Source: Caldimonas mangrovi (GTDB lineage: Bacteria > Pseudomonadota > Gammaproteobacteria > Burkholderiales > Burkholderiaceae_C). From it: 64,000 nt of DNA. The position numbers and the translations under genes were made by a program. The DNA lies in the NCBI RefSeq assembly GCF_023721835.1, contig NZ_JAMKFE010000005.1:248001-312000 (forward strand), in the 5' to 3' direction. This document shows, piece after piece, positions 15,408-34,165 of this stretch. Position 1 is the stretch's first letter. Each line of letters opens with the position of its first letter. The notes under the pieces are model-generated. The model worked only from the letters and a program-made list of their open reading frames with translations, was not told the origin of the DNA and did no database searches.

Positions 15408-15426
15408 GGCACGTATGCGGCAAACG

Positions 15427-15714
15427 CTATGCCTGCGTCGCGCCCGCCCGTGCACTCTGGCGGCGGGTGTTGCGCCGGTAGATCGCCTGGCCGGCGATCG
15501 CACTGCACAACAAGGCGACGTTGACGAACAGGAACACCCAGTTCTGCAGCAGCGCGCTGTAGATCGAGAAGCCGAGCGACGCCGCCGACTGGCCGATGAA
15601 CAGCCAGGACGAGACGCCGCGGCTGTCACCGCTGCGCCACTGCTTGCGCACCTGGTGGAAGATGGTCCACAGCAGGATGGCCGCACTGGCCCATCCGATC
15701 AGCTCAGTTGTCAT
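15427..15714 (-). CDS. SemiSWEET/PQ-loop-like small membrane protein
   Basis: About 95 aa with three hydrophobic segments and the layout of a SemiSWEET half-transporter: an ALLWTIFHQVRKQWRSGDSRG block followed by GVSSWLFIGQSAASLGFSIYS and FVNVALL. The classical Pro-Gln is replaced by His-Gln (FHQV). It starts 22 bp after the AsmA-like stop and ends 19 bp before ku, so it is probably co-transcribed with both. Transport of small sugars is the family expectation; nothing in the context proves it. Confidence 0.65.
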   Translation of the reverse strand: MTTELIGWASAAILLWTIFHQVRKQWRSGDSRGVSSWLFIGQSAASLGFSIYSALLQNWVFLFVNVALLCSAIAGQAIYRRNTRRQSARAGATQA

Positions 15715-15736
15715 GCATGGGTCCTGAAGCAAAAAA

Positions 15737-17896: not shown

Positions 17897-20026
17897 TCAG
17901 AAGCCGACTTCGCGCTGCCACAGCGCCGCCACGCGGCGAATCGCCCATTCCATCCAGCTGCGATCGGTTCCCTGCAACACGGCGATGCCGGTGCGCTCCT
18001 GCTGCGAGACCCCAGGCAGGTCGCAATCGGTCAACCGCACCCGGAAGACCGCCCGCAAAGGCACCAGACGCCCGTCCGGCATGCGCTGGGACGGGATCTC
18101 GCCACCGAAGCTGCTGCTGACCGCTGCATGCTCGATCTGCGACAACTGCACCGGATGCACGCCGACCCCCGTGCACGTCACGCCCGGGTGGCCCGGCAGG
18201 TCGGCCAGGAAGACCGCCCGGCCCGGCTGGCCTTCGAGGCTTTGGAGCGCATGCTCGTCGACATAGGCGTCGACCTTGTTGCCGCTGGGGCCGACCAGCG
18301 TCAGCAAGCGCTCGCCGGCCGGCAGCCAGGCGGCTGGCGACACGTCGGGGTTGACGTCGACCACGTCGGCATCGAACGGTGCGACCAGCGTCAGGCGTTC
18401 GGCTTCCCGCTGCAGCCCCTGTACCGCCTCGGCGGCCTGTTCCCACCGTTTGCGCAGCGCGGGACCGGCTTCGCGCAGGCGTGCATCGAAGCTCTGCTGC
18501 GTCAATTGCCAGCGCAGCTGCTGTTCCTGCGCGTGCGCCAGGGCCAATTGGGCCTGCAGCTCGGGCGCCTGCAGCCGCACCAGCTCCTGCCCGGCGCGCA
18601 CGCGAGTCCCAGCGGCCGGCAGCGGCGTCAGGAGCTGTGCCGCCCTCGGGGCGTACAGCCCTTGTGTCTGCAAGGCGCCCAGCACGGCCGGTGCGCGGAC
18701 GTTCGACTGCCACGGCCACAGCACGAAGGCGGCGGCGGCACCGGCGACCAGCACGAGGCGCACGGTCGCCGCATTCCAGCGCATGCGGCCGCGCCGCTGC
18801 CACCAGGCCTTCATCTCGCGCTGCACCGGCAATGCGATGAACCAGGCCAGTTCCACCATCATCAGCACCAGGCCGAGGACCTTGAAGAACAGGTGATAGA
18901 CCAGCAGCGCGATGCCGAGAAACAGCACCAGCCGGTACAGCCAGGTCGCGTAGGCGAAGACGATCAGGAAGCGCTGCCGGGCGGGCGGCAGCAGCTCGGG
19001 CGCCGGCTCGCCGAAACCGAACAGGCGCTCGCGCAGCCACCAGCGGCCGTGCGCGAAGGCGCGTTCGTGCAGGTTGGGTAGGTTGATCCAGTCGGACAGC
19101 AGGAAGTAGCCGTCGAAGCGCATGAACGGGCTGGCGTTGATCGCGAGCGTCAGCACCCAGGTGGTGGTGGCGAGAAGAAAGGCGCCCGCGCGTGCGGGGC
19201 CCCATTGCGGCGTGTCGGGCAGCATCGCCCACGCCAGCAGCGCGACGGCGCCGAGTGCCAGCTCGGTCAGCATCCCGGCGGCGCCGATCGCCAGCCGCTG
19301 CCGGCGCGACGGCAGCTTCCAGGCTTCGTTGGTGTCGGTGTACAGCACCGGCCACATCACCAGGAACGCCACGCCCATCGTCGGCACCCGGCAGCCGTAG
19401 CGGTGTGCGGTGAGCGCGTGTCCCAGCTCGTGCAGCAGCTTGGCGGCCGACACGGCGACGCCGATGGCGAATGCACCTTCCCAGCTGGCATACGAGACGA
19501 AGGTGTGGGTGAACTCGTCCCAGCGGCGGGACGCGAGCAGCAGCCCGGCCAGCGCGGCGGCGGCGACGGCCCACCAGAAGCCGGGGTGGAAGGCCCAGCC
19601 GATGCGCGGCGCCAGGCGCTGCAGCAGGCGCTCGGGCCGCACCAGCGGCAGGCGGAAGAAGAGGTAGTTCTTCAGCAGCCACATGCCGGGCCCCGGGCGC
19701 GAGGCCTGCGCGGCCTGCCGCAGCCGCTCGGTGTCGGCGCCCCGTGTTGCCTGCAGCAGGTGGTTGCGCCCGAGCATCTCGACCAGGCCCTGCAGGTCCT
19801 GCGGCGTCGGGCGCAGCGTGGTGTGGTCGTGCACCGCCTGCAGCACCGCCTGCGGTGCGCCCATCGACCAGCGCGACAGGATCTCGAAGGCGGCCCATCC
19901 GAGCTGGTAAAAGCGGTTGGCCGCCGGGTCGTGCAGCGTCCAGGTCGGCGTGCCGTCGGCGGCTGGTGCGCCGGGGTGCAGCGCCAGATCCTGGCGCAGC
20001 GGGGGCAGGGTCGCCAGTGTGGCCAT
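17897..20026 (-). CDS. PqqD-like / M50 metalloprotease / HlyD fusion membrane protein
   Basis: 709 aa. Residues ~30-95 resemble a PqqD-type winged helix (QLGWAAFEILSRW...DLQGLVEMLGRNHLL). A multi-pass membrane part carries the zinc-protease motif HELGH at 199-203 and the second motif NASPFMRFDGYFLLSD at ~297-312, whose Asp is the expected third zinc ligand. Further membrane segments lead to a HlyD-type C-terminus from ~440 (two lipoyl-like halves around a short coiled coil). The family is annotated as a putative peptide zinc metalloprotease. It is the last of six genes after the giant exoprotein and probably handles its processing or export across the inner membrane. No ATPase motif is present. 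Confidence 0.8.
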   Translation of the reverse strand: MATLATLPPLRQDLALHPGAPAADGTPTWTLHDPAANRFYQLGWAAFEILSRWSMGAPQAVLQAVHDHTTLRPTPQDLQGLVEMLGRNHLLQATRGADTERLRQAAQASRPGPGMWLLKNYLFFRLPLVRPERLLQRLAPRIGWAFHPGFWWAVAAAALAGLLLASRRWDEFTHTFVSYASWEGAFAIGVAVSAAKLLHELGHALTAHRYGCRVPTMGVAFLVMWPVLYTDTNEAWKLPSRRQRLAIGAAGMLTELALGAVALLAWAMLPDTPQWGPARAGAFLLATTTWVLTLAINASPFMRFDGYFLLSDWINLPNLHERAFAHGRWWLRERLFGFGEPAPELLPPARQRFLIVFAYATWLYRLVLFLGIALLVYHLFFKVLGLVLMMVELAWFIALPVQREMKAWWQRRGRMRWNAATVRLVLVAGAAAAFVLWPWQSNVRAPAVLGALQTQGLYAPRAAQLLTPLPAAGTRVRAGQELVRLQAPELQAQLALAHAQEQQLRWQLTQQSFDARLREAGPALRKRWEQAAEAVQGLQREAERLTLVAPFDADVVDVNPDVSPAAWLPAGERLLTLVGPSGNKVDAYVDEHALQSLEGQPGRAVFLADLPGHPGVTCTGVGVHPVQLSQIEHAAVSSSFGGEIPSQRMPDGRLVPLRAVFRVRLTDCDLPGVSQQERTGIAVLQGTDRSWMEWAIRRVAALWQREVGF

Positions 20027-20030
20027 CGCG

Positions 20031-21365
20031 TCACCAGCCCAGCCACTGGCGTGCCACCACCAGCGGGCGGCGCAGCGCGATGTAGATCAACGGTGCCCAG
20101 CCGGCTTCGAGCCGCGCGGTGCCCATCTGGCCCAGTCGCGGCGGCGCCTGCCCGGGCAGGAAATCGGCTTTCAGCCGGTACGCGAGAAAGCCTTCGGCCG
20201 TCGGTTCGGCGCGGTAGGCGACCTGCACGATGCGCGCTTCATAGGCGGAGAGCGGCGAGCCCTGCGGGTAGAGCGTCAGCACGTCGCCCGCCTGCACGGC
20301 AATGTGGTCGCCGGCTGGCAGGTGCGCGGTCAGCTCGACCTGGCGCGGGTCGGCGATCAGCAGGATGCGTTCGCCGATGGCGACGGCGCGGCCGAGCCAG
20401 TCGCTGGTGTCGGCGAACACCGCCACGCCGTCCCGCTCGGCCTTGACCTGGATGCGCGCCAACTGCTGCGCGGTGTATTCGAGCTCGACCGAACGCTCCT
20501 GCAGCTTGCCGCGGCTGAGTGCGATCTCGATGCGGCTCTTGTCGTCGGTGACAGCGGCCTGGGCCGATTGACGGTATTCCTCCAGCGCGGTGTCGTAGGC
20601 CTTGCGGGCCACGTCGTGGCGGGCCTGCAGCGACGTGATGTCGAGACTGAACAGCGGCGTGCCGGCATGAACGGGCTGGTTGGGCTGGACGTCGAAACGG
20701 TCGATCACGCCGTCGAGCGGGGCGCGCACGAGGAACGGGTCCTTCGCGGTGACCTCGGCGGGCGCGAGCACGGTCAGGCGCATCGGCACCAGGCACAGCA
20801 CCAGCGCCGCGATCACCAGGCGGCGGCGCGCCTTGCCGCCGCGCAGCCAGCTGCCCGCCTGCGCCAGGCCGCTGCGACGCGGCTTGAAGGCGGCCAGTGC
20901 ATGGCCGTAGGCGTCGGCGAGCTCTTTCGCGAGCGCGAGTTCCGCTTCGGGCCAGGCCCGTTCACGCACCAGCACCAGCCCGGCGTCGGCCGGTTCGCCG
21001 GGGCGGCCGAGCGGCAACCACAACGCGTGTTCGGGCCACCATTGCGACCACTCGGCCTGCAAGGGCTCGGGCAGGTCGACGGCGCCGAACCCCTGCGCCG
21101 GCCAGCGTTCGCGCATCGCGTGCCGGCCGATCTTGCCGGCCCATTGCACGTAGGGGGCGGTCGGGTCGGGCTGGGGCAATCCCGAGACGGCGGCGACGCG
21201 GGCGAGGCCTTGCTCGCTCCACAGCACGGCCTGCCGGTACGGCAGCAGCTGCAGCGTCTCGTTGACCGCGACGAAACCCAGTTCTTCGAGCGTGGCGGCG
21301 GCACGCGCACGGCGCGCCAGCTGCAGCAGCGTCAACAGCGGGCTGACGGCGTCCCGGGCGTTCAT
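20031..21365 (-). CDS. HlyD-type adaptor with N-terminal GAF-like domain
   Basis: 444 aa. Residues ~15-158 look like a cytoplasmic GAF domain (LARRARAAATLEELGFVAVN..., LWLPLG...GLVLVRERAW). One membrane segment follows at ~182-201. The periplasmic part has a lipoyl half (VRAPLDGVIDRFDVQPNQPVHAGTPLF), a helical hairpin and a second lipoyl/beta-barrel part. A HlyD adaptor with a GAF-like head inside the cell suggests ligand- or partner-controlled secretion. It lies between a classical adaptor (4 bp upstream) and the M50 fusion (4 bp downstream). Confidence 0.82.
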   Translation of the reverse strand: MNARDAVSPLLTLLQLARRARAAATLEELGFVAVNETLQLLPYRQAVLWSEQGLARVAAVSGLPQPDPTAPYVQWAGKIGRHAMRERWPAQGFGAVDLPEPLQAEWSQWWPEHALWLPLGRPGEPADAGLVLVRERAWPEAELALAKELADAYGHALAAFKPRRSGLAQAGSWLRGGKARRRLVIAALVLCLVPMRLTVLAPAEVTAKDPFLVRAPLDGVIDRFDVQPNQPVHAGTPLFSLDITSLQARHDVARKAYDTALEEYRQSAQAAVTDDKSRIEIALSRGKLQERSVELEYTAQQLARIQVKAERDGVAVFADTSDWLGRAVAIGERILLIADPRQVELTAHLPAGDHIAVQAGDVLTLYPQGSPLSAYEARIVQVAYRAEPTAEGFLAYRLKADFLPGQAPPRLGQMGTARLEAGWAPLIYIALRRPLVVARQWLGW

Positions 21366-21369
21366 CGCT

Positions 21370-22134
21370 TCACTTGCGCGGCGGGAACATGGCCCAGCCG
21401 CTCATGCCAGGCAGGAGCATCGGGTGGCTGCCGTCGATGACACCGATCACCGGCAGCGTCTGGCTCACCGGGTCGATCTGGGCGCCCAGGCGCTGCACCT
21501 TGGCGGGATAGGTCTTGCCGAGTTCCTCGACCTCGACGCTGAAGCTCATGCCGGGCTTCAGCCAGGCCAGCCAGCGCGACGGCACGATCATCTGCAGTTC
21601 GAGCTGCCCGGTTTCCAGCACGTCGAGCAGCGGGGTGCCCGGCTGCACGTAATGATGCGCCGCAACGTGGCGCTTGGCGATGCGCCCGTTGAACGGTGCG
21701 GCGATGGTGCAGCGGCTCATCAAGGTGCGCGCGCCGCTGGCCTCGGCCTGCATCTCCTTCAGCTTGGCCCGTGCCTGGTCGAGTTCGAACCGGCCGATCG
21801 AGTTGAGTTCGGCCAGTCGCTGGTTGGACTGCATCAGCGCCTGCGCGGCCTCGACGCCGGCTTCGGCCTTGCGCAGTTGCGCCTGCACCAGCGAGCAGTC
21901 GAAGCTCACCAGCGCCTGGCCGGCGCGGAAGGCGTCGCCCTCGCGCAGCGGCAGACTGGAGATGCGGGCTGCCAACTCGCTCGACAGCGTGACCGCGTTG
22001 CGCGAACTCAGCTGTGTGCGGATGCGCCCGTCCTTGTCGGCCGTCAGTGCCGGTGGCAGGGGCGCGGCGGTCTGCGCTGCCAGGGGCAGCGGCAGCAGCG
22101 CGAGCAGGAGCAGCACATGGCGTCGCAAGCTCAC
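21370..22134 (-). CDS. Periplasmic adaptor (HlyD/RND type)
   Basis: 254 aa from a GTG start at 22134 with AAGGAGG just upstream; the start overlaps the TolC-like stop (GTGA). A signal peptide (RRHVLLLLALLPLPLAAQ) is followed by a lipoyl half (SLPLREGDAFRAGQALVSFDC), a coiled-coil hairpin, APFNGRIAKRHVAAHHYVQPG, and a beta-barrel ending LLPGMSGWAMF. It is exported rather than membrane-anchored by an N-terminal helix. It probably forms the periplasmic ring that docks on the neighbouring TolC-like protein. Confidence 0.88.
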   Translation of the reverse strand: MSLRRHVLLLLALLPLPLAAQTAAPLPPALTADKDGRIRTQLSSRNAVTLSSELAARISSLPLREGDAFRAGQALVSFDCSLVQAQLRKAEAGVEAAQALMQSNQRLAELNSIGRFELDQARAKLKEMQAEASGARTLMSRCTIAAPFNGRIAKRHVAAHHYVQPGTPLLDVLETGQLELQMIVPSRWLAWLKPGMSFSVEVEELGKTYPAKVQRLGAQIDPVSQTLPVIGVIDGSHPMLLPGMSGWAMFPPRK

Positions 22135-23711
22135 GTCCCTCCTTGCGGGTCGATCACCTTCTGCCAGGCCTGTTCCGATGCGCGCACGGCTTCGCCGAGC
22201 GTCTTGAGATCGTGCGCGCCGACCGATTCCGGCAGCGGGTCGAGGCCCAGCGTCGCGATCACCTGCCCGTAGGCACCCTGCAGGGCACCGTAGTTCTGGT
22301 AGAGGCGCAGCTCGGCCATCATGGCCGTGGCGGCCGCGCGGATTTCTTCGAGCTTGCTTTGCGCATTGGCGCTGGCGGCGTTGCGCGTGTATTGCAGGAT
22401 GCGCTGCTCGACGGTGTGGAGCTGCTGGGTCAATTCGTACTGGCGCAGCTTGCCCAGGTAGTCGAGGTGGGCCACGTGCACCTGCGTCAGCACCGCCATG
22501 TTGAGCGCCAGGCGCTGTCGCTGCGCAACCTCGAGCTGGGCCTGGGCCAGCCCGCGGATCTTGCCGGCGTTGAGCACATTCAGCAGATTCCAGCTCACCT
22601 TGACACCGACGTCGCCCCAGTGCTGGTTGACCAGGTAGCTGTTGCTGTCGTAGTGGCCGCCGAGGCTGAGCTCGATGCCGGGGAAGAGCTTGGCCATCGC
22701 CTTGCGGGTTTCCAGCAGGCCGATGCGCTCGTTGTAGTGCGCTTCGACCAGCTCGGGCCGGTGGGTCAGTGCGGTCTCTTCCATGACGTCGGTCGAGATC
22801 GCGAGCTTGGGCACGTCCAGCGTGAGCGCGCCCGACACCTCGAACGGGCGGCCGGGGCCCAGGTTCATGATGGCCGCCAGTCGCGGCTTGGCCTGCGCCA
22901 GGTCGTCGCGCACGGCTTCGAGCTGGCGCACGATATCGAGCAACTGGCGCTGGTAGGTCAGCGCCTCGAGCGGCGAGCGCAGCTTCTCGACCTCGACCTT
23001 GCGCGCGTCTTCCAGCGCCTGGCGCGCCAGCGCCAGCACCGGTTCCACCTTGCCTTGCAGCGCCTGCGCGCCGGCGGCCTGCCAGTACGCCTGCCGGGTC
23101 TGCTGCATCAGCAGGTGCAACACCTTGCGGCGCCGCTCCTGGGCGACCAGCAGGCGGTCGGCCTGCTGCGAGGCCTGGTAGTAGCTGACGCCGAAATCGA
23201 GCACGTTCCACGACAGCGTCAGGTCGGTGGTGTAGCGCTCGTCGTCGGTGGAGGTGGACGGCTCCAGCGACTCGGTGCCGGTGCGCACGCTGCGCGACGA
23301 CGAGGCCAGCACGTTGTCGCGGTGCGTATAACCGGCCGAGGCGGCGAGCTTGGGCAACAGGTCGGTGCGCGAGAGGTCGAGCTGCCGCTGCGACACCGCC
23401 TCTTCCATCAGCTTGAGCCGGTGGTCGAGGTTGTACTTGATGGCTCGCGCCATCGCTTCTTCGAGCGTGATCGCGCCCTGCAGCGGCTCCTGCTCGGCGA
23501 ACATGCGCGAGCGGTCCTGCTGCACGGCGGTTCGCAGTTCATCGGCGGTCAGCGAGCGCGGCTGGATCGCACAGCCGGTGAAGGCGACGGCGACCAGCGA
23601 GGCGAGCAGCAATCGTCGAAAGGGCGTCCGGCGGCGGGCGATGGTCAAGATGGTGTGCTCCATGGTTGTTGTCGACGTGAGGGCCATCGGGCCAGGAAGG
23701 GCCATGCTCAT
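22131..23711 (-). CDS. TolC-family outer-membrane channel
   Basis: 526 aa. The start at 23711 overlaps the stop of the giant gene (ATGA) and follows AGGAGGAAGG, a sign of translational coupling. A hydrophobic leader is followed by a possible lipobox (FTGC). Two OEP repeats follow, with long helices and strands such as LDLSRTDLLPKLAASAGYTHRDN and MAKLFPGIELSLGGHYDS. It is the outer-membrane exit of the export pathway. Alternative internal Met codons up to residue 17 would still keep the leader. Confidence 0.9.
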   Translation of the reverse strand: MSMALPGPMALTSTTTMEHTILTIARRRTPFRRLLLASLVAVAFTGCAIQPRSLTADELRTAVQQDRSRMFAEQEPLQGAITLEEAMARAIKYNLDHRLKLMEEAVSQRQLDLSRTDLLPKLAASAGYTHRDNVLASSSRSVRTGTESLEPSTSTDDERYTTDLTLSWNVLDFGVSYYQASQQADRLLVAQERRRKVLHLLMQQTRQAYWQAAGAQALQGKVEPVLALARQALEDARKVEVEKLRSPLEALTYQRQLLDIVRQLEAVRDDLAQAKPRLAAIMNLGPGRPFEVSGALTLDVPKLAISTDVMEETALTHRPELVEAHYNERIGLLETRKAMAKLFPGIELSLGGHYDSNSYLVNQHWGDVGVKVSWNLLNVLNAGKIRGLAQAQLEVAQRQRLALNMAVLTQVHVAHLDYLGKLRQYELTQQLHTVEQRILQYTRNAASANAQSKLEEIRAAATAMMAELRLYQNYGALQGAYGQVIATLGLDPLPESVGAHDLKTLGEAVRASEQAWQKVIDPQGGT

Positions 23712-26700
23712 CCTTCCTCCTGCGCCAGTGCACGCAGGTGCTCCAGCAGCGCGGCGCGCTCCGCTTCGCGCGCCACGTGGCCATAGCGTTCGAACTGCGC
23801 AGCAAGGGCCGGTCGGCCGGACTCGGACGGCAACGGCTGCCCGGGCAGGTCGGCGAAGCGGGCGTCGAAGCCTGCTTCGCCGGGAGGCAGGTGCAGGTCG
23901 GTGCGCGGCTCACCGGCCGGCCGCGCTGGCGGCGCCGCCCGGTTGAACTCGATCTCCAGTTGCGAACTGGCGCGGTTGCCCTTGGCATCACGGGCGATGA
24001 CCTCGATCTTCAAGCGCCCGGCCACGCCGTCGGGCGCGCGGCCGGACAACGTGCCGGTGGTGGGATCGAACTTCAGCCAGTTGGGCAGCGGCCGGCCGTC
24101 GGCCATCCTCACCTCGACCGCCACTTCCGCATTGCGGTCGCTGTGCGTGAACGTGGACGCCGGCAGCGCAATGCTGATCTGCGAGCCGGGCGGGACGCGG
24201 AAGTCGCCGACATCCGGCATCGCTTGCAGGCCCGCGCCGTTGCCGGCCCCGACTTCGATGAAGGTGCTGCGCGGTGCGTCCGCTGCCCAAGCGGTGGCGC
24301 TCAACGCAGCGGGGGTCAGCGGGTTCTGGCCCAGGGCGCTGCCCACGAAGGTGCCGGGAAGGCCGCCGTCTGCTGCCGGCCCGGTCGGTGTGAGGGTGGG
24401 CGTGTCGATCGGCGTGATGGGCGCCATCGGGTTGAGCGTGACAGGCGGTTGCTCGAAGACCGGTGCCGGGGCGGCCACCGGTGGGGGCAGGGGCGACAGC
24501 GGCGTGGGAGGCGGCGGGGGCGGGGGCGGCGGCAACTGCTCGATCTGATAGGCGTCGCCGCTGCCTCCCACGGCGAGGGCATTGCCGGCCAGATCGGCGA
24601 TGCCGCTGCCGGCCGATGCGAGTGCGAGTTGCAGCGTGCCGCTGCCGGCAATGCCGCCGACGGTGACGACGTAGGTCGAGGCATCCACCTGTGTGACCGT
24701 CGTGACGCTGCCCGCCGCCGACCCGGTGGCGGCCAAGCTGAAGTCGCTCGTGTCGAGGCCGGTGACGCCCTCCGAGAAGCTCACGGTGTAGGTGACGCTG
24801 CGGGCAAAGGTGGGGGAGGGGTCGGCGCGCACGATGCCGACAATGGCGGGCACGGTGGTGTCGACCACAACGCCTGCGGTGCTGCCGACGCCAGCGAGCG
24901 TGACGGTCAGGTCGTTGCCGGCCGCATCGCGCAGCGTGCCGCCGTTGGCCTGCAGGCCGCCGACCGCAATGCCGTTGGGGTCTGTATCGCCGGCCTGCAC
25001 GGTGTACTCGAAGACGAGGGCTGTGCCGCCGGAACCGGTTGCGTAGGTCGCATGGCGGGTGGTTCCGCCGACGTCGAGTACCAGCCGGGGCGTACCGCCG
25101 GCGCTGTCGACGAGCACGGCCTCGCTGGCGTTGACGGTGAAGCTCAGCACGTCGCCGGCGTTGTAGTGGCCGCTGGCGGGCACCGCGACCGTGGCGACGG
25201 TGGGCACCACGGCGTCGACCTGCACGCCCGCGGTGGCACCCACGCCCTGGAGCGTCAGGGTCGCCGTATTGCCCACGGCATCGCGCAGCGCGCCGCCGTT
25301 GGCGTCGATGCTGCCGCCGAGCGCGATACCGTTGCTGTCGAGGTGGCCGCTTTGCACGGTGTAGCGGAACACCAGCGCGCCGGTGCCGGAGCCGCTGACG
25401 TAATCGGCGTAAACGGTGCCGCCGGTGTCCAGCGTGACCGCGAGGCGCGGGGTGCCGCCGGTGGTGTCGACCGTGACGGCCTCGCCGAAGTTGACGGTGA
25501 AATCGAGGTTCTGTCCGGCCACGTAGGTGCCATTGGCCGGCACCGAGACTGATGCCACGGCAGGAATGTCGCGATCGATGCCGTAGACCTCGCCAGTGGC
25601 GCCGGCCGCGAGGGCGTTGCCGGCCGCATCGGCCATGCCGGTGCCGCTGCCGTTGAGGTCGAGCCGCACGCTGCCGGTACCGCTGAGCCCGTTGACGACG
25701 ACGGTGTAGGTCGAACCGTCGACCTGCGTGACCGTCGCGATGGTGCCGGCGGCCGAGCCGGTGGTGACCAGCGTGAAGTCGGCCGCGTCCATGCCGCTGA
25801 CGGCTTCGGAGAAGGTGACCGTGTAGCTGACCGAGCCGGCGGTGGTCGGGGTGGCGTTGACGCGCACGATGCCGGTGTTGGCCGGTGCGGTGGTGTCGAC
25901 GACCACGCCCGAGGCGTCGCCCACACCGGTGAGCGCGACGTTCAGGCTGTTGCCGGCCGCATCGCGCAGCGTGCCGCCGTTGGCCTGCAGCGAGCTGACG
26001 GCGATGCCGTTGGCATCGGTGTCGCCCGCCTGCACGGTGTACTCGAACACCAGCCCGCTGCTGCCCGAGCCGGACACATAGCTGGCGTGACGGGTGACGC
26101 CGCCGATGTCCAGCACCAGCCGTGGCGTGCCGCCGGTGGTGTCGACCACCACGGCCTCGCTCGCGTTGACGCTGAAGCTCAGCACGTCGCCGGCGTTGTA
26201 GTGGCCGCTGGCCGGCACCGAGACCGATGCCACCGCCGGCACGACGGCGTCGACCTGCACGCCAGTGGTAGCGCCGACGCCGTTGAGCGCCAGATTCGCG
26301 GTATTGCCCACAGCGTCGCGCAGCGTGCCGCCGTTGGCGTCGATGCTGCCGCCGAGCGCAATGCCGTTGCTGTCGAGGTGGCCGCTTTGCACGGTGTAGC
26401 GGAAGCTGAGCGCGCTGGTGCCCGAGCCGGCGAGATAGCTCGCGTAAACGGTGCCGCCGGTGTCCAGCGTGATAGCGATGCGTGGGGTGCCGCCGGTGGT
26501 GTCCACCGTGACGGCCTCGCCGAAGTTGACGGTGAAGTCGAGGTTTTGCCCGGCCACGTAGGTGCCGTCGGCCGGCACCGAGACCGAGCCCACCGTGGGC
26601 GCCACGCCGTCGATGATCAGGTTGTGCTGCCCGGCGATGGAGTTGGCGCCGCCGGTGGCCGGCAGCGTGAGCACTGCGTCGTCGTCGGTGGCGTTGCGGA

Positions 26701-29700
26701 GGGTGGCGCCGTTCAAGGCCAGCGCGCCGGTCGACTGGTAGTCGAGGTCGGCGCTGAGGTCGCCGGCCTGCACCGTGTAGCTGAAGGTCAGGGTGTCGCT
26801 GCCGGAACCGGACACGTAGCTGGCCAGCCGGTCGGTGGTGCCGGTTTCCAGCAGCAGCGTGGGCGTGCCGCCGGTCGTGTCGACGTTCACCGCCTGGTCG
26901 AAGGTGACGGTCACCGTGACGGTGTCGCCCACCTTGTACCCGCCATCGGGGTTGGTCACCTGCACGTTGGTGACCTCCGGGTTGAGGCTGTTGACGGTGA
27001 TGGCGATGATGTCGGTGTCGGTCTGTGTGCCGCCGGACCCGCTCAACCCGAGGTCGCTGGTCGTGATCTGCAGGCCGGCGGCGCCGTTGTAGCCGGGCGT
27101 GGGCGAGAAGATCAGTCCGTTCAGCGCACTGTTGATGTCGGCAATGGTGCCTTCAAAAGTCATGGTGCCGTCGTTGGCGCCGCTGCCCACGATGAAGCTC
27201 AGGCCCGTGGTGCCGGGCAGTGTGATCAAGCCGTTGCTGGCGGTCAGCGTCACTCGCACCGTACCGCCGCCGGCATCGACGTCGCCGACAGAAACCAGGT
27301 TGCCGTTGCCGCTGCTGAAGACCAGCGTCGCGTCCTGATCCACCGACTGGGCGGCGGGCACACCATGGACTGGCGCATCGTTCACCGCGGTCACCGACAA
27401 CGTGACGGTCTCTGCATCGTCCAGGTTGCCGCCGCTGCCGGTATTGCCGTTGTCGGCGATGCCCACGGTCAGCACCACGTTGCCGGTGGCGTTCGTCGCC
27501 GTCTGGAAAGCGACGCCGCCGCCGGCGATGTAGGCATTGATGTCGGCGATGCTGCCCGTCAGGGTCAGCGCGGAGCTGGTCCCGCCGACGGTGACGCCGC
27601 CGCCGCTGGTGGCTGCCAGGCTGCCAGAGCCGACCGAAAAGGTGGCGGTCACCGGGCTGCTGCCGGCATCTGCGTCGGCGAAGCTGATGCCGGTAAGCGC
27701 GCTGCTGACGTCCTCGGTGACGTTGATCGAAACAGGCGTTGTGACCACGGGCGCGTCGTTGACGGCGCTCACCTGCAGGGTGGTGGTACCGCTGTCAGTT
27801 TGCGCGCCGCCGCTGCCGGTGTTGCCGCCATCGTCGACGCTTGCGGTCAGCGTCACATCGGCGGTCGCGTTGCTGGCCGTGGTAAAGGTGACATTGCTGC
27901 CGGCGATGAAAATATTGATGTTGGCGATGCTGCCGGTCAGGGTCAGGGCGCTGCCGGTGCCTCCGACGGTGACGCCGCCGCCGCTGGTCGCCGCCAAGCT
28001 GCCGCTCGCTACCGAAAGTGTTGCCGTCACGCTGCCGCCACCGGCGTCGACATCGCTGAAGCTGATGCCGGTCAGGGCGCTGGCAACGTCCTCGGTCACG
28101 CCGATCGAAGCGGGCGTCGTCACGACAGGTGCGTCGTTGACGGCCGCCACGCTGATCACCTTGGTCGCCGCGTTGCTGTCGGCACCGCCGTCGTTGACGG
28201 TGAAACCGATGGTGCGGTTGGCGGTGCTGGGCGCATCCGAGCTGTTGTCGTAGGTGACGCTGCGCAACGCGGCTTGCCATTGGGCCAGCGTCGCGGTGCC
28301 GCCGGCGGAGGTCAGCGTCAGCACGCCGGTGGCGGCGTTGTAGCTGGCACTGATGTTGCCCATGGTGCTGCCGTCGTTGGTGAAAGCAAGCACGTCCTGG
28401 CCGCTGGCGAAGTTGCCGGTGATGGCGGCCGTGGCACTAACGAAGGTTGTGCTGTCCACATCGCTCAGCGTCAGGCTGGCATCGACCACCGTGGCGCTGC
28501 CGCTTTCCGTAAAGGCGCTGGTCCCGCCGGAGGTCGTCACCACAGGTGCGTCGTTCACCGCGGTCACGGTGATCGTGATGGTGCCGTCGGCCGGGCCGGT
28601 GTCGGCGGCGTCGCGTATGCGCGTGGTGATGCTGAAGTTCTGGTCGTTGTTGGCCGAGGGGGTCAACGCGACGGCAGCCAGTGCGGCATTGACGTCGGCC
28701 GCCGAGCCGGTGACCGTCCATACGCCGGTGCCAGTGTTGTAGGTGGAGGTGGCCGAGCCGAAGGTGCCGGTCGACAGCGTGCCGGCCGAGGTGTCCGAAA
28801 GCGTCAGCGTGGCGGTGATCGTGTCGCCGGTGTCCACGTCGGTCACGACGATATCGTCCAGCGCCACCGCGCCGCCGGCTTCGGTGGCCGCCTTGCTCTG
28901 CGTGAGGTCGGTGGCCGTCGGCGCATCGTTGGTGCCGGTGACCGTGACCGTGATCGTGCCGTCGGCCGGGCCGGCATTGGCGGCGTCGCGAACGCGGGTG
29001 GTGATGGTGAAGTTCTGGTCGTTGTGGGCCGAGGGGGTCAGGGCCACGGCTGCCAGCGCGGCGTTGACGTCGGCCACCGAGCCGGTGACCGTCCACACGC
29101 CGGTGCCGGCGTTGTAGGTGGACGTGGCCGAGCCGAAGGTGCCGGTCGACAGCGTGCCGGCCGCAGGGTCGGACAGCGTGAGCGTGGCGGTGAGTGTGTC
29201 GCCGGTATCGACGTCGGTGATCACGATGTCGTCCAACGCCACGGCGCCGCCGGCCTCCGTGGCGGCCTTGCTCTGGGTGAGGTTGGTCGCCGTGGGCGCA
29301 TCGTTGGTGCCCGTGACAGTGACCGTGATCGTGCCGTCGGCCGGGCCGGTATTGGCGGCATCTCGAACGCGCGTGGTGATGGTGAAGTTCTGGTCGTTGT
29401 TGGTCGAAGGGGTCAACGCGACGGCAGCCAGTGCGGCATTGACGTCGGCCACCGAGCCGGTGACCGTCCACACGCCGGTGCCGGCGTTGTAGGTGGACGT
29501 GGCCGAGCCGAAGGTGCCGGTCGACAGCGTGCCGGCCGAGGTGTCCGAAAGCGTGAGCGTGGCGGTGGTCGTGTCACCGGTGTCCACGTCGGTCACGACG
29601 ATGTCGTCCAGCGCCACCGCGCCGCCGCCTTCGGTCGCGGCCTTGCTCTGCGTGAGGTTGGTAGCCGTGGGCGCATCGTTGGCCGGTGTGACGTCGAGCG

Positions 29701-31873
29701 TGATGGTGCCGTCCGCCGGGCCGGTGTTGGCGGCATCGCGGATGCGCGCGGTAATGGTGACGTCCTGGTCCCGGTTCGCCGCCGGGGTGAAAGCCACGGC
29801 GGCGAGCGCCGCGTTCACGTCGGTCAACGAGCCCGTGACCGTCCACACGCCAGTGCCAGCGTTGTAGGTTGCGGTGGCCGAGCCAAAGGTGCCGGTGCTG
29901 AGGGTGCCTGCCGCAGGAGTTGAGAGCGTGAGGGTCGCGATGATCGTATCGCCGCTATCCACGTCGGTCACCACTATATCGTCGAGCGCTACAGCGCCGC
30001 CCGGGTCTTCGACGTATGCGACCGTTTGGGTGAGATTGGTAGCCGTCGGCGCGCTGTTGGGCGAAAAATTGGTGTCGAGTGTGCCGAGGTTGTAGATGTT
30101 GGTCTGGCCGCTACCCGCTGAACCGTTGCCTTGCCCGGAGCCACCCGAGCCCCCTGCGCCGGCATTCGACGCCAGGTCGCCGTTGCTGATGCTGTCCAGC
30201 CTCAGCGTCGCACCGGCGGCGTTCCACAGGCCACCAACGCCGATACCTCCGCCGCCTCCGACACCCGGTTGTAACGCTCCACCCGCGCCGCCGCCGCCTG
30301 CCGCACCGACGTTGTTGGATACTGTCGAGGACAAAATCGTCAGGGTGCCGGCGTTGTAAACCGCACCCGCTGCGTGACCGCCCCTGCCACCGTTGCTCGC
30401 GTACGCCGCGCCGCCGCCGCCGCCGCCGATCGACAAGCTGCCGTTGCTGGCGGTCCCACCTGTCCCTCCGCTGGCATAGCCGCCCAGCGCCCCTCCTGCT
30501 CCACCGGTGGTGCTACCGCCTCGTCCGCCGTGCCTGTTGTTTATCGGTGTCGTGTAGTCCCCGCCATTGCCACCGACACCGCCGCCGCCGGAACTGCCAG
30601 CGTAGTTGGTGCCGCTCGTGCCGCCAGCGCCGCCGGACCCGCCGCCAATGCCGGCAAGGCCGCCGCCCCCGCCGCCACCGCCACCGGCATATACGCCGGA
30701 ACCGCCGCCACCACCCCCCCCCGAGGCACCGCTTGCGGTGACCGTGACCCCGGTCAGGGTCAGAGTACCGGCGTTGCGTATCGCACCACCAAGGGCATCG
30801 CTGCCGACAGCCCCCTTGTTGCCGCCGTTGGCAGCGATCAAGCCTTCACGGATGGTGAGGTTGGCGATGCTGACCGTCCCGGAACGAACCTCTACGACCC
30901 GCCCGTAATAATTGGCGTCCACGGTGTACCCACCGCCCACGATATCGAGAGCCTGACCGTCACTAACGTTGATATCGACAAAGGTGCGGTGTCCGTCGGT
31001 GCTGCTGGCAAGCATGTCGCCGGTGCCCGTCGCGCTGATGTTGCCCAGAAGGGTGATGGTATCGGTCGCGCCGTTCGAGGCCGCCGTGCTCAATGCCGTG
31101 CGAAGTTCGCCTATGGTGCTGACTGAAAACGTGGCGAGTTGATGGTCGTAGTCCTGCAGTCGGGCGCCGTCGAACGCGGGCACCGCGTTGACCAGGCCGG
31201 TGGTGATCTCCAAGGTCCAGTTGCCGCCACCCCGGGTGTTGCCGGTGCTGTCGTTCGATGCCGCAATGTCGGCGGCGGTCGCATCGGCCAGTGCCGCCAG
31301 GAACTGCTCGCCCTTGGTACCTGCGCCTACGTCGCATCCGTACAGCAAGATGTCGCCGTCGGGTGCCAGTGCGGAACCGATGGCGCTCAACCGGTCGTTG
31401 TACGCCGTCAGGTTGCCGCTGTGCAGTGGCACGTTGCCGAGCAGCAATACCCCTTCGTCGCCGTGCGAGACGACGTGAATGGCGTCGATCCCGGTGCGCC
31501 CGTTCAGGGCATCAGCGATCTGTTGTACGCCATCGCGGTTGCTGTCGAGCAAGACGATCTCTGCTCCCGGGGCGGCAGCCGCAACGATCTCGTCGTAGTT
31601 TGGCAGCCGGGTGTCGACAAAGACGATCTCGGTGCGTGGATGCTGCGCAGGAGCCAGCGCATCGCTGATGTCTGCCGCAGTTTCGTGCGCCGGGGCAGGC
31701 GGCGGTGGAGCGTCGCTACTCGCTTCGGCAACGCCGGCCGCCGCCGCGACGACTCCCGCATCGAACATGATGCGCGGCTCCAGCGCGAGCATCAGCGGCG
31801 GCTGCTGGGAACGCGCCGGGCTGGTCTTGCCCGCAGGGGAGCGACGGGGTGCGCGAGATTTGAGCCACCACAT
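23708..31873 (-). CDS. Giant repetitive exoprotein: LEPR leader, DUF4347, cadherin/Ig-like repeats
   Basis: 2721 aa; the ATG at 31873 has AAGGA eight bases upstream. There is no classical signal peptide. Instead it has a basic start followed by LALEPRIMFDAGVV (residues 29-42, LEPR-type leader). DUF4347 spans ~80-245 with HVVSHG (His137) and LLYGC (Cys180). A beta-helix-like region (~245-600) holds a Gly-rich insert (~384-540). Then come four ~125-residue cadherin-like repeats, three of another type (VNDAPVVTTP...), and two 345-residue Ig-like superblocks. A poly-Pro linker precedes a putative-Ig domain (LPNWLKFDPTTGTLSG) and a charged end. No RTX repeats. It is probably a surface adhesin exported by the five downstream and upstream partners. 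Confidence 0.9.
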   Translation of the reverse strand: MWWLKSRAPRRSPAGKTSPARSQQPPLMLALEPRIMFDAGVVAAAAGVAEASSDAPPPPAPAHETAADISDALAPAQHPRTEIVFVDTRLPNYDEIVAAAAPGAEIVLLDSNRDGVQQIADALNGRTGIDAIHVVSHGDEGVLLLGNVPLHSGNLTAYNDRLSAIGSALAPDGDILLYGCDVGAGTKGEQFLAALADATAADIAASNDSTGNTRGGGNWTLEITTGLVNAVPAFDGARLQDYDHQLATFSVSTIGELRTALSTAASNGATDTITLLGNISATGTGDMLASSTDGHRTFVDINVSDGQALDIVGGGYTVDANYYGRVVEVRSGTVSIANLTIREGLIAANGGNKGAVGSDALGGAIRNAGTLTLTGVTVTASGASGGGGGGGSGVYAGGGGGGGGGLAGIGGGSGGAGGTSGTNYAGSSGGGGVGGNGGDYTTPINNRHGGRGGSTTGGAGGALGGYASGGTGGTASNGSLSIGGGGGGAAYASNGGRGGHAAGAVYNAGTLTILSSTVSNNVGAAGGGGAGGALQPGVGGGGGIGVGGLWNAAGATLRLDSISNGDLASNAGAGGSGGSGQGNGSAGSGQTNIYNLGTLDTNFSPNSAPTATNLTQTVAYVEDPGGAVALDDIVVTDVDSGDTIIATLTLSTPAAGTLSTGTFGSATATYNAGTGVWTVTGSLTDVNAALAAVAFTPAANRDQDVTITARIRDAANTGPADGTITLDVTPANDAPTATNLTQSKAATEGGGAVALDDIVVTDVDTGDTTTATLTLSDTSAGTLSTGTFGSATSTYNAGTGVWTVTGSVADVNAALAAVALTPSTNNDQNFTITTRVRDAANTGPADGTITVTVTGTNDAPTATNLTQSKAATEAGGAVALDDIVITDVDTGDTLTATLTLSDPAAGTLSTGTFGSATSTYNAGTGVWTVTGSVADVNAALAAVALTPSAHNDQNFTITTRVRDAANAGPADGTITVTVTGTNDAPTATDLTQSKAATEAGGAVALDDIVVTDVDTGDTITATLTLSDTSAGTLSTGTFGSATSTYNTGTGVWTVTGSAADVNAALAAVALTPSANNDQNFSITTRIRDAADTGPADGTITITVTAVNDAPVVTTSGGTSAFTESGSATVVDASLTLSDVDSTTFVSATAAITGNFASGQDVLAFTNDGSTMGNISASYNAATGVLTLTSAGGTATLAQWQAALRSVTYDNSSDAPSTANRTIGFTVNDGGADSNAATKVISVAAVNDAPVVTTPASIGVTEDVASALTGISFSDVDAGGGSVTATLSVASGSLAATSGGGVTVGGTGSALTLTGSIANINIFIAGSNVTFTTASNATADVTLTASVDDGGNTGSGGAQTDSGTTTLQVSAVNDAPVVTTPVSINVTEDVSSALTGISFADADAGSSPVTATFSVGSGSLAATSGGGVTVGGTSSALTLTGSIADINAYIAGGGVAFQTATNATGNVVLTVGIADNGNTGSGGNLDDAETVTLSVTAVNDAPVHGVPAAQSVDQDATLVFSSGNGNLVSVGDVDAGGGTVRVTLTASNGLITLPGTTGLSFIVGSGANDGTMTFEGTIADINSALNGLIFSPTPGYNGAAGLQITTSDLGLSGSGGTQTDTDIIAITVNSLNPEVTNVQVTNPDGGYKVGDTVTVTVTFDQAVNVDTTGGTPTLLLETGTTDRLASYVSGSGSDTLTFSYTVQAGDLSADLDYQSTGALALNGATLRNATDDDAVLTLPATGGANSIAGQHNLIIDGVAPTVGSVSVPADGTYVAGQNLDFTVNFGEAVTVDTTGGTPRIAITLDTGGTVYASYLAGSGTSALSFRYTVQSGHLDSNGIALGGSIDANGGTLRDAVGNTANLALNGVGATTGVQVDAVVPAVASVSVPASGHYNAGDVLSFSVNASEAVVVDTTGGTPRLVLDIGGVTRHASYVSGSGSSGLVFEYTVQAGDTDANGIAVSSLQANGGTLRDAAGNSLNVALTGVGDASGVVVDTTAPANTGIVRVNATPTTAGSVSYTVTFSEAVSGMDAADFTLVTTGSAAGTIATVTQVDGSTYTVVVNGLSGTGSVRLDLNGSGTGMADAAGNALAAGATGEVYGIDRDIPAVASVSVPANGTYVAGQNLDFTVNFGEAVTVDTTGGTPRLAVTLDTGGTVYADYVSGSGTGALVFRYTVQSGHLDSNGIALGGSIDANGGALRDAVGNTATLTLQGVGATAGVQVDAVVPTVATVAVPASGHYNAGDVLSFTVNASEAVLVDSAGGTPRLVLDVGGTTRHATYATGSGGTALVFEYTVQAGDTDPNGIAVGGLQANGGTLRDAAGNDLTVTLAGVGSTAGVVVDTTVPAIVGIVRADPSPTFARSVTYTVSFSEGVTGLDTSDFSLAATGSAAGSVTTVTQVDASTYVVTVGGIAGSGTLQLALASAGSGIADLAGNALAVGGSGDAYQIEQLPPPPPPPPPTPLSPLPPPVAAPAPVFEQPPVTLNPMAPITPIDTPTLTPTGPAADGGLPGTFVGSALGQNPLTPAALSATAWAADAPRSTFIEVGAGNGAGLQAMPDVGDFRVPPGSQISIALPASTFTHSDRNAEVAVEVRMADGRPLPNWLKFDPTTGTLSGRAPDGVAGRLKIEVIARDAKGNRASSQLEIEFNRAAPPARPAGEPRTDLHLPPGEAGFDARFADLPGQPLPSESGRPALAAQFERYGHVAREAERAALLEHLRALAQEEG
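24540..26595 (-). repeat. Two tandem copies of a 1035-bp Ig-like superblock
   Basis: The landmark CGGCCACGTAGGTGCC recurs at 25516 and 26551, a period of 1035 bp (345 codons). Each block contains three Ig-like units with VDTTGGTPR signatures and one SEAVSGMDAADF-type unit. Unequal crossing over could add or remove whole blocks in frame. Confidence 0.8.
28555..30060 (-). repeat. Four tandem 375-bp cadherin-like coding repeats
   Basis: Exact 375-bp spacing (125 codons) of units reading APTATNLTQSKAATE...ADGTITVTVTG. The three inner copies are very similar at the DNA level; the outermost (toward 30060) has diverged. Recent duplication in the gene is implied, and repeat number may vary between strains. 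Confidence 0.85.
30714..30722 (-). repeat. Nine-base G tract inside the giant gene
   Basis: Nine C on the plus strand (G9 in the mRNA sense) in the Gly-rich part, about residue 388 of 2721. Gain or loss of one base would truncate the protein, so the tract could act as a slippage switch. The present length keeps the frame open. Confidence 0.5.
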
Positions 31874-31900
31874 GGTTGGGTTCCTTTGGCAAGCTGCGGG

Positions 31901-32860
31901 TCAGGTGGCGTGGCGAGCGGGGTGGGCCGTGCCATTCGGTGTTTCGTCGTTCCTCACGCGGATCACATGAGCGGCGCTGGTGTGTTCTTCGCGCCAGAAG
32001 CTCAGGTTGGCGTACTGCTGAAACAGATCGGGTGGCAGGATGGTCTGCCGGGACTGCGCGCCGACCTTGGGACGCACCCGATGCAACCCGGCCAGCCCAA
32101 GCGCCTGATCGAACTCCGGTGCGTCGTACCGGACATCGTCGAAGTCGTGCTGCGGGTACCAGGGCTCGCCGATGAAGTCGTAGACGAGACGCAGGACCTT
32201 GTCTGGTGCTTGCGCAAGCAGGTCGTACTCCACCACTAGAAGGGCGCCGGCATGCTCGCTGTAGAAGGCCTCCTTCAACCCGGCCCAGGCAAAGCCCACC
32301 AGTCGGTTGCGCTGGGCGAGCGTGTCCACGCGGCTGTAGACCGTGTTGCGTTCCACGTCGTCGTTGAAAAGCTTGGTGTTCTCGAACGGGTTGGCCCGAT
32401 ACAAACGCTCGATGCTGTCCATCACCCACGCGACGTTGCGCACGCAAGCGATGACCTTGGCTTGTGGAAAGAGACCCAGCACGGCCGGCAGCTTGGCGCA
32501 CCAGAGGCGGTTGGTATCGAAGACGACCGGCTTGTCGACATGTTCGCTGTAATAGTTGTCGAACAGCCCGCGCAGCAGCCGCTGACGCTGCTCGCGCGAT
32601 ATCACGGGACCGAACTCGCTGCCGGCACTGAATTGCCCCAGCATCGACGTGAACAGCGACCCGACCGGGCTTGTCATGCCGGCATGGAAGCGCGGGTTCT
32701 GCTGCAGCAGCGCTGCCAGCAGCGTCGAGCCGGAGCGAGGCAGGCCCGAAATGAAGTGGAAGGTCCGGGGGGGGCTGTTCAAATCGGTTTCCTGTGCGTC
32801 GGCGGCCTTGAGTTCATGCGCAACTGTCGGCGCGCTCGTGGTGCGCGGACAGCGCAACAT
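31901..32860 (-). CDS. PAPS-dependent sulfotransferase
   Basis: 319 aa from the ATG at 32860. The PAPS 5'-phosphosulfate loop is SGLPRSGST (residues 38-46). The 3'-phosphate site region is VIACVRNVAWVMDS, and the C-terminal part has VEYDLLAQAPDKVLRLVYDFIGEPWYPH-like features. The FHAGMTSPVGSLF block after the loop belongs to a bacterial subfamily related to protein sulfotransferases. It ends 27 bp before the giant gene on the same strand, so it is probably the first gene of that operon. The target may be the giant protein (Tyr or Ser/Thr) or a glycan. No strong ribosome site is seen, so the start is moderately sure. Confidence 0.85.
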   Translation of the reverse strand: MLRCPRTTSAPTVAHELKAADAQETDLNSPPRTFHFISGLPRSGSTLLAALLQQNPRFHAGMTSPVGSLFTSMLGQFSAGSEFGPVISREQRQRLLRGLFDNYYSEHVDKPVVFDTNRLWCAKLPAVLGLFPQAKVIACVRNVAWVMDSIERLYRANPFENTKLFNDDVERNTVYSRVDTLAQRNRLVGFAWAGLKEAFYSEHAGALLVVEYDLLAQAPDKVLRLVYDFIGEPWYPQHDFDDVRYDAPEFDQALGLAGLHRVRPKVGAQSRQTILPPDLFQQYANLSFWREEHTSAAHVIRVRNDETPNGTAHPARHAT

Positions 32861-32958
32861 GAATCTGGTTGTATCTGCCTGCACTATTGCGCAAGATGCG
32901 GCCGGTGTGGCCAAGCGAAAGCAGCAGGCCGTGTACAAGTACCGATGCAGGAGGATCA

Positions 32959-33531
32959 ATGCAGGACAGTTCCACCGACACCTCCGACAGCATGTCGCCT
33001 ACGTGGCCCATGGCGACCGTCTGGATCACCGGATTGAGCGGGGCGGGCAAGTCGACGCTGGCGTTGCAGCTGTACCGCGCGTGGCGCAGCGAGGGTCGGC
33101 CGGTGCTGGTGCTGGATGGAGACGCCGTGCGCAGCGGGCTGAATCGGGACCTCGGCTTTTCTGCCGAAGACCGGCACGAGAACATCCGCCGCGCGGCCGA
33201 AGTAGCGCGCCTGGCCAACGAGGGCGGCGTGTGGGTGATGGCGGCGTTCATTGCTCCGTTGGCGGTCCACCGCAGCCTGGCACGGGAGATCATCGGCAAC
33301 GACAGGTTCATCGAGGTCTATCTCTCCACCCCTTTCGACGTGTGCGCGGCCCGCGATCCGAAGGGGCTCTACGCGCAGGCCAAGGCCGGGGCGATTGCAA
33401 ACTTCACCGGTGTGGGCGCCGCGTACGAGCCGCCGGTGAACCCGCACTTGTCGATCGACACGTCGAGGCACACACCGCAGCAGGCCGCCGACCTGGTGCT
33501 CGATCTGCTGCTGCGGCGCCTCGAACGCTGA
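32959..33531 (+). CDS. cysC: Adenylylsulfate (APS) kinase
   Basis: 190 aa; the ATG at 32959 follows GGAGGATCA. It phosphorylates APS to PAPS. Walker A GLSGAGKST is at 25-33, then LDGDAVRSGLNRDLGFS, DRHENIRRAAEVARL, and the substrate lid RDPKGLYAQAKAGAIANFTGVGAAYE-type motif. All key residues are present. No cysD, cysN or cysH is near. It diverges from the sulfotransferase with 98 bp between starts, which points to PAPS supply for sulfation rather than for sulfate reduction. Confidence 0.94.
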   Translation: MQDSSTDTSDSMSPTWPMATVWITGLSGAGKSTLALQLYRAWRSEGRPVLVLDGDAVRSGLNRDLGFSAEDRHENIRRAAEVARLANEGGVWVMAAFIAPLAVHRSLAREIIGNDRFIEVYLSTPFDVCAARDPKGLYAQAKAGAIANFTGVGAAYEPPVNPHLSIDTSRHTPQQAADLVLDLLLRRLER

Positions 33532-33534
33532 TGT

Positions 33535-34083
33535 TCAGGGTCGCGACGGGAAGATGCCTTCCATCGCAATCACGAAGTTGATGCCGATGTAGGGGTTGCG
33601 CATTCCCACCGGCTGGCCGCCGCCCGCAACACCCGACTGCACACCCGCCATCTCGACGGGCCCGTTCAACTGCGTGGACCAGATGTTCGCCGAGCCCGGC
33701 CCGCCGCTGGATGCTCCGAGGGCGTTGTTGCTTGCGCTGGGCGTGTTGGCCGGCTCCGTCGCCGTGCCGGCGACCTGCACCGAGGTCGGGTGGTTGTGCA
33801 TGGGCAGATTGTTGAGCGTGAGCGTCACGTTCTCCGTGCCGGCGAGTGCACCCTGGACGATGTTGGAAAGCCTTGGTCCTTGACCCATGCCAACCGGACT
33901 GCGGCCGCGCAGGTCCGGCAGGCCGAAAGTGACTTGCCCGTCCCCGCCGTACATCGTGCCCAGCAGCGCGAACAGCGCCTGGTTCTGGGCGATCGGCACC
34001 AACTGTCCCTGGCATTGCGCCCAACCGACCGGCGCGAAATTGAAGCCGACCATGCGGATCTCGCCGATGAATGGTTCACTCAT
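33535..34083 (-). CDS. Phage tail collar-domain protein (MdpB-like)
   Basis: 182 aa from the ATG at 34083, with AAGGAG upstream. The N-terminal collar domain reads GEIRMVGFNFAPVGWAQCQG...GDGQVTFGLPDLRGR. The rest is Ser/Gly/Thr-rich and closes with GMRNPYIGINFVIAMEGIFP, the typical end of microcystin-dependent-protein (Mdp) family members. No other phage gene is close, so this is a domesticated or non-phage fibre-like protein. It is convergent with cysC, with only 3 bp between stops. Confidence 0.85.
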   Translation of the reverse strand: MSEPFIGEIRMVGFNFAPVGWAQCQGQLVPIAQNQALFALLGTMYGGDGQVTFGLPDLRGRSPVGMGQGPRLSNIVQGALAGTENVTLTLNNLPMHNHPTSVQVAGTATEPANTPSASNNALGASSGGPGSANIWSTQLNGPVEMAGVQSGVAGGGQPVGMRNPYIGINFVIAMEGIFPSRP

Positions 34084-34165
34084 ACTCGTCTCCTTGGGGG
34101 GTGGGGGAGCGGGCCGGCTGACGGCAGCCTCCCGCGGTGTCTGCCTGCGGGGCAAGCTTGCAGCG

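Follow-up and report, generated by a model that had tools for sequence, protein, structure and literature searches.

A minus-strand gene unit around a giant repeat protein

We analysed a window of 64,000 nucleotides from Caldimonas mangrovi (positions 248001-312000 of contig 45; genome of 5.5 Mb) and describe here a minus-strand unit in which a giant repeat protein is encoded together with a TolC-like channel and three HlyD-type proteins. Read 5' to 3', the unit consists of a sulfotransferase, the giant, the TolC-like channel, HlyD, GAF-like/HlyD and M50/HlyD; all features below are given in window coordinates and lie on the minus strand. The giant, a presumed export substrate of 2721 aa (23708-31873; Pfam DUF4347 and Cadherin_4), carries an N-terminal LEPRIMFD motif of the LEPR-XLL type (31760-31783; NF012209 match and motif comparison), a DUF4347 domain with a predicted caspase-like fold (31160-31642; Pfam, alignment and predicted structure), a C-terminal He_PIG (Ig-like) domain (23954-24208; domain match) and a C-terminal GRPALAAQF motif (23792-23818; motif comparison). 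It is followed by the TolC-like outer-membrane channel (22131-23711; 526 aa; Pfam OEP), in which a lipobox-like FTGC was noted by eye, and by a periplasmic HlyD/RND-type adaptor (21370-22134; 254 aa with a GTG start; Pfam HlyD_3/HlyD_D23), which has a signal-peptide-like N-terminus and scores above the cut-off of the RND-type efflux adaptor family. The last two genes encode a GAF-like/HlyD inner-membrane adaptor with, by eye, a single long hydrophobic stretch (20031-21365; 444 aa; Pfam HlyD_3/HlyD_D23), and a fusion of an M50 intramembrane protease with HlyD (17897-20026; 709 aa; Pfam HlyD_3 and Peptidase_M50).

M50/HlyD and GAF-like/HlyD are separated by 4 bp, as are GAF-like/HlyD and HlyD; HlyD and TolC overlap by 4 bp, as do TolC and the giant, and 27 bp lie between the giant and the sulfotransferase. 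The open reading frames (ORFs) and junctions thus bear out the compact unit with gaps of at most 27 bp described in an earlier note on this DNA, and its statement that the six genes lack Walker motifs agrees with a Walker A pattern search that was negative in all six proteins. The sulfotransferase, an occasional companion (31901-32959; Pfam Sulfotransfer_3), has TTG at the 5' end of its ORF and a real start that probably lies further inside, and upstream of it lies a phage-tail-collar gene (33404-34155; the protein is placed at 33535-34155), a recurrent neighbour of the giant. On the same strand, directly after the unit, an AsmA-family gene (63 bp off), Ku and LigD occupy 11859-17833.

The M50/HlyD protein is, judging from sequence and model, apparently the sole multi-transmembrane component of the set. 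Its HExxH residues (H199, E200 and H203), as well as a SPFMRFDGY stretch with the distal aspartate D305, are invariant in all 25 aligned M50/HlyD proteins, and its AlphaFold2 model (mean predicted local distance difference test score, pLDDT, of 86.6; predicted template modelling score of 0.66) yields membrane-fusion-protein matches. The protein is likely an inner-membrane receptor or gate. Residues 35-399 of the window protein (P0001) score 167 bits against the daptide M50 proteases of ribosomally synthesized and post-translationally modified peptide (RiPP) pathways (NF041824), a likeness that stays below the curated cut-off of 300 bits, and a distant, RiPP-like cousin locus (L243) differs in encoding an M50 protein without HlyD fusion, an aminotransferase and HlyD together with ATP-binding cassette (ABC) genes. 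The PqqD part that the earlier note had assigned to M50/HlyD was detected in none of the 25 aligned proteins, but is still hinted at by a sub-cut-off match in one protein of the sister clade described below (22.7 bits; cut-off 23.4) and by a predicted beta3-alpha3 fold at the N-terminus. Its GAF label for the second adaptor fares similarly: Pfam is silent on the window protein, but detects GAF in 3 of 21 aligned proteins.

Distribution of the gene set in genomes, plasmids and a SecA-linked sister clade

The best 80 of 584 matches to M50/HlyD (L009-L088) were annotated with profiles. GAF-like/HlyD is encoded in 79 of these 80 relatives, HlyD in 62 and TolC in 60, and all four components, M50/HlyD included, occur together in 60. 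In 57 of the 60 complete sets the order on a single strand is TolC, HlyD, GAF-like/HlyD and M50/HlyD, so that the window's gene order, which the earlier note had suggested looking for elsewhere, does recur in other genomes. A large repeat protein precedes the TolC-to-M50/HlyD set wherever the flank reaches, and in a shorter variant the giant lies immediately ahead of GAF-like/HlyD. Thirty further stretches with M50/HlyD hold all four components in 20 cases, often in a different order, such as HlyD, GAF-like/HlyD, M50/HlyD, giant and TolC, or TolC, giant, HlyD, GAF-like/HlyD and M50/HlyD. The wider survey covered 145 loci that encode a window-type M50/HlyD; 31 of them are short pieces, and the window's own genome is counted twice. 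All four components are visible in 83, and the gene set is spread across Proteobacteria. These gene neighbourhoods show a core of five genes that travel together: giant, TolC, HlyD, GAF-like/HlyD and M50/HlyD. The six-gene unit proposed in the earlier note is therefore right for the window, where all six ORFs are present and tightly packed, but not for the conserved core: among the 21 loci with the upstream region visible, window counted, a sulfotransferase lies near the giant in 3, and a phage-tail-collar protein in 7. AsmA was seen in the window's own genome only, the other loci yielding no homologue. A conserved linked pump was also considered and rejected: among the families common to at least four flanks, the three sampled were a histidine kinase, a competence protein and an acetyltransferase, with an ABC group and collar proteins also among these families and five more lying outside the sampling.

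Plasmid records matching M50/HlyD number 52, including 18 from Escherichia, 13 from Azospirillum and 8 from Citrobacter. The Escherichia coli plasmid pABWA45_1 (L253) carries a complete five-gene module with insertion sequences on both sides, annotated as an Ig-like giant, TolC and three HlyD-type genes, with parts labelled as efflux adaptors. A search of 5426 E. coli genomes detected these E. coli transporter genes in 24, in 22 at a cover of at least 80%, and 21 of 25 places are plasmid-borne; the M50 gene of another locus (L059) had no DNA match in E. coli genomes. The E. coli giant starts with the motif variant LESRQLFDGA and has DUF4347-like stretches, SHG and YGC; in the part of it that was read, consisting of two overlapping pieces, the one cysteine lies at the YGC site. 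A conjugative Burkholderia anthina plasmid likewise encodes a DUF4347 giant, TolC and three HlyD-type genes, and the Cupriavidus metallidurans CH34 megaplasmid has all five genes, the giant being cut at the edge of the stretch. As judged from gene content, the presumed export module thus appears to be self-contained and mobile, moving as a unit. Immediately ahead of the giant, the B. anthina plasmid carries a gene annotated as tail fiber protein.

A related kind of locus has already been described. The excerpted text of Kamneva, Poudel and Ward 2015 (PMC4452313) reports loci that combine GAF-HlyD, M50-HlyD and HlyD with a secondary SecA_DEAD protein and from which ABC proteins are absent; its authors propose that SecA serves as ATPase and M50 as pore, call the biological role "completely unknown" and, in that text, name no substrate. 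The SecA-linked locus and its lack of an ABC protein are therefore prior knowledge. We carried out a census of 398 Proteobacteria in which the best two candidates per genome were scored against an M50/HlyD profile, with matches in 91 genomes and scores above 500 bits in 77. The weaker matches often have as neighbour a SecA of about 670 aa; the gene order there is GAF-HlyD, M50-HlyD, SecA and HlyD, and most of these loci are bordered on one side by a large protein. DEAD, cross-linking and P-loop domains were recognized in one of these SecA proteins. In a tree of 83 M50/HlyD proteins, 22 rows, 16 of them SecA-linked, stand apart from 61 rows with no SecA-linked member, with a branch support of 100; the tree was made by a quick method and is unrooted, and its "neither" labels partly reflect short loci, some rows having little flank. 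We refer to the two groups as sister clades. Both share the GAF-HlyD, M50-HlyD and HlyD genes and the absence of an ABC gene, as far as the excerpts of PMC4452313 describe the Kamneva locus, and they differ in that the window clade lacks the secondary SecA and usually has a TolC gene. The first 80 loci yielded no SecA homologue, though their flanks frequently end within the giant.

A second SecA elsewhere in the genome was sought in 80 of the 90 A1-positive genomes besides the window's own, ten less complete ones being excluded: a second match above 32 bits is absent from 41 of 66 window-clade genomes and present in 25, and the window's own genome has one SecA. Three sister-clade loci show further features. 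In L170 (11469-19001; L171 is similar), the SecA-linked locus is followed by a ShlB/FhaC-type two-partner-secretion transporter and by a second large protein with, by eye, a haemagglutinin-like start. Around 2731072 on contig 1 of G006, a 14,920-codon open frame with DUF4347 lies upstream of a SecA-linked locus, and L174 combines a sister-clade M50/HlyD with a LEPR/DUF4347 giant, with no SecA and no TolC within the 19 kb seen.

The giant protein and its DUF4347 domain

Window-type giants start with LE[PQA]Rx[MLVIA][FYL]D[AG], and residues 28-47 of the window giant match the NCBIfam family LEPR-XLL (NF012209) at 15.2 bits, against a cut-off of 17. Ten DUF4347 giants from SecA-linked genomes, eight of which share a contig with the linked SecA, all have, by eye, LEPR, MEPR, LEER or LEQR followed by x[LM]LS, and a LEPR-type motif thus appears to be common to the giants of both clades. 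We link a giant LEPR/DUF4347 protein, as proposed substrate, to both clades; for the Kamneva locus, the excerpts of PMC4452313 name no substrate. At the other end of the protein, a strict C-terminal motif, defined on the giants of L009-L088, is present in 62 of 64 defining giants versus 50 of 1665 other ORFs and 8 of 3200 shuffled tails; it is missing from L010, which was probably read in a wrong frame, and from L013, whose AKPDLASQF is a single letter off.

The DUF4347 domain was found in 71 of the 77 genomes with M50/HlyD above 500 bits versus 24 of the 321 others or, counted by genus, in 33 of 36 versus 17 of 177. The pairing of DUF4347 with M50/HlyD is thus strong but not strict. A histidine (residue 137 of the giant) and a cysteine (residue 180) of the domain are invariant in 32 of 32 aligned sequences, and its predicted structure (mean pLDDT 93.9) has as top Foldseek match the type VI cargo Tce1 (9qpe_G; E 3e-5; template modelling (TM) score 0.59), followed by caspase-3 and legumain at E values of 1e-4 to 1e-3 and TM scores of only 0.34-0.45. 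Designed TIM barrels also came up in a PDB sequence search with DUF4347 and were taken as chance matches. According to the excerpted text of PMC13323088, Tce1 is a putative cysteine protease whose His/Cys dyad aligns with protease domains already known; the name DUF4347 comes from the PDB and from the excerpts of PMC8262886, and does not appear in those of PMC13323088. Tce1 (PDB 9qpe) and the giant hence seem to share the same domain and His/Cys pair, and differ in that Tce1, as excerpted, is a small type VI cargo, whereas the domain here forms the N-terminal part of a giant protein. We accordingly model DUF4347 as having a predicted caspase-like (clan CD) fold with a putative His/Cys dyad.

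A census of 36 giants or large parts of giants, several of them cut at one end, counted 53 cysteines in 82,393 residues. The predicted catalytic cysteine is the sole one in 25 of the 36, including the window giant with its single cysteine at residue 180, and the extra cysteines are mostly no more than 30 residues away from the start of the ORF, a start that may have been set too early. This lone-cysteine pattern would fit a self-processing N-terminal domain.

A proposed export route and its rivals

As far as anatomy tells, the set is type-I-like and kin to the Kamneva locus minus SecA. Like type I secretion systems, it includes an HlyD-type adaptor and a TolC-type channel, and it differs from them by the absence of the defining linked ABC exporter and by a window giant whose Pfam matches include no RTX family, RTX repeats being common but not universal among type I substrates. 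Large adhesins of the LapA/SiiE type are type I secreted, and in their systems, as here, a giant cadherin/Ig-like protein is encoded with TolC and HlyD; the set described here departs from them by its M50/HlyD and GAF-like/HlyD proteins, the LEPR N-terminus of its giant, the lack of a linked ABC gene and the lack of an RTX match. On balance, we favour the view that the set is a dedicated ABC-free, type-I-like export module for giant LEPR/DUF4347 surface proteins, probably powered by the housekeeping Sec machinery. In the route we propose, the PqqD-like and GAF-like cytoplasmic domains would recognize the LEPR motif, perhaps together with the C-terminal motif; the M50 membrane domain would gate or process the substrate; the housekeeping SecA/SecYEG would provide the inner-membrane push, by analogy with the sister clade; HlyD and TolC would form a periplasmic and outer-membrane duct that carries the chain out; and the caspase-like DUF4347 domain may process the giant. 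The earlier note had suggested a protease-driven or borrowed-energy route. We found nothing that points to M50 proteolysis as a power source, and we reject that part for want of support; borrowed energy is plausible, since the sister clade, unlike the window clade, has a SecA-like ATPase of its own. The broader claim that these systems form a separate exporter class, ABC-free and plasmid-mobile, in which M50-HlyD takes the place of the ABC protein, recognizes a LEPR-type signal and exports giants with a caspase-like self-processing domain, powered by Sec or by the proton motive force, seems to us evenly poised.

Several observations weigh against the export module as proposed, and are considered here together with the explanations that compete with it. 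Roughly a quarter of the 80 relatives show no TolC and HlyD beside M50/HlyD, partly owing to short flanks; DUF4347 occurs without any M50/HlyD match in 20 of the 398 genomes, and M50/HlyD without DUF4347 in 6. The export of the giant and its energy source, SecA action included, are both inferred. ABC exporters are, moreover, available: the window's own genome holds an unlinked LssB/LapB-type exporter (contig 7; 979 bits) and an unlinked PrtD-type exporter (613 bits). A rival explanation is ordinary type I secretion through an unlinked ABC exporter, the cluster having lost or never had its ABC gene, which the TolC and HlyD genes would suit. We searched 37 window-type genomes, picked for contiguity or kinship rather than at random, for an LssB/LapB-type exporter, which scored above the cut-off in 20, and the 17 below it, plus the window's own genome, for HlyB- and PrtD-type exporters, which raised 8 of the 17 above a cut-off and left 9 below all three. 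With at least one exporter above a cut-off in 28 of the 37, an ABC exporter is present in most of these genomes and could be used by the cluster. Full-length but sub-cut-off matches in G016 and G045 leave seven genomes (G082, G213, G298, G023, G004, G064 and G088) with neither a convincing type I ABC exporter nor a second SecA; a dedicated ABC exporter is hence not a constant partner, and the drive in these seven would be a housekeeping function or one of the five components. No ABC ORF lies inside the cluster in any of the 145 loci, short ones included, nor in the plasmid stretches viewed. In 15 of the 145 an ABC ORF lies in the flank, at a distance of at least 102 bp; among these, that of L063 is beside an O-antigen ligase and that of L201 beside a MacB-like protein, and L070 has an ABC and OEP pair 3 kb off that could be a separate exporter. 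The earlier note's view of a gene set without a linked ABC exporter thus extends to many taxa, and the finding it had named as a potential refutation, a dedicated exporter elsewhere in the genome that accompanies the cluster, is partly matched: exporters of two types exist in the same genome, but they do not co-occur consistently with the cluster. Together with the missing RTX match of the giant, this makes an unlinked ABC exporter an improbable explanation.

The signals of the giant raise a further difficulty for the Sec-powered module. The giants lack a canonical signal peptide, their best charge-free N-terminal 12-mer being absent or below a Kyte-Doolittle (KD) value of 2, with two exceptions at 2.2 and 2.4, against 2.5-2.8 for the HlyD and TolC proteins of the cluster; plain Sec targeting is therefore disfavoured, and the SecA step is the weakest of the proposed route. 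The main rival is that M50/HlyD is itself the translocase, its membrane domain moving the chain together with the PqqD-like and GAF-like domains, driven by the proton motive force or by an extracellular folding ratchet and without Sec. The lack of a signal peptide in most giants, the absence of SecA at the cluster in the window clade and the position of M50/HlyD as apparently the sole multi-transmembrane component would all suit it; the pairing of the related sister-clade protein with a SecA-like ATPase tells against it, and we know of no M50 protein that translocates proteins. We regard this rival as unlikely, though worth keeping in view. Less probable than any of the above is that the giant crosses the inner membrane otherwise, and that the M50/HlyD/TolC set serves in processing, retention, release or small-ligand export: the intact M50 catalytic residues and the score of the free HlyD above the RND-type cut-off would agree with such a role, but the genes stay together despite permuted orders and plasmid transfer. 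As for the C-terminal motif, which would be the candidate here for the C-terminal secretion signal of type I substrates, its strict form is present in only 2 of 16 independent giants with a visible C-terminal end, and a looser core in 10 of the 16, in 58 of the 64 defining giants, 102 of 1770 other ORFs, 168 of 3200 shuffled tails and none of 11 SecA-linked tails. Being weak in independent giants, the motif is a feature of part of the clade, and we no longer rest the signal on it; the standing of the dedicated export module is unchanged, since its support comes from the gene set, from the genome tests and from the sister clade.

Our searches of the open-access literature turned up no prior description of the giant substrate family or of the candidate LEPR signal. 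If the dedicated export module is real, giant adhesins would leave Gram-negative cells by a route that is invisible to searches for ABC exporters, and whose parts are publicly annotated as efflux adaptors or as a site-2 protease. Loci of a kind described in 2015 as having a "completely unknown" role would also gain a proposed substrate and a candidate signal, and the presence of the set in C. metallidurans CH34 makes the question of its energy source directly testable.

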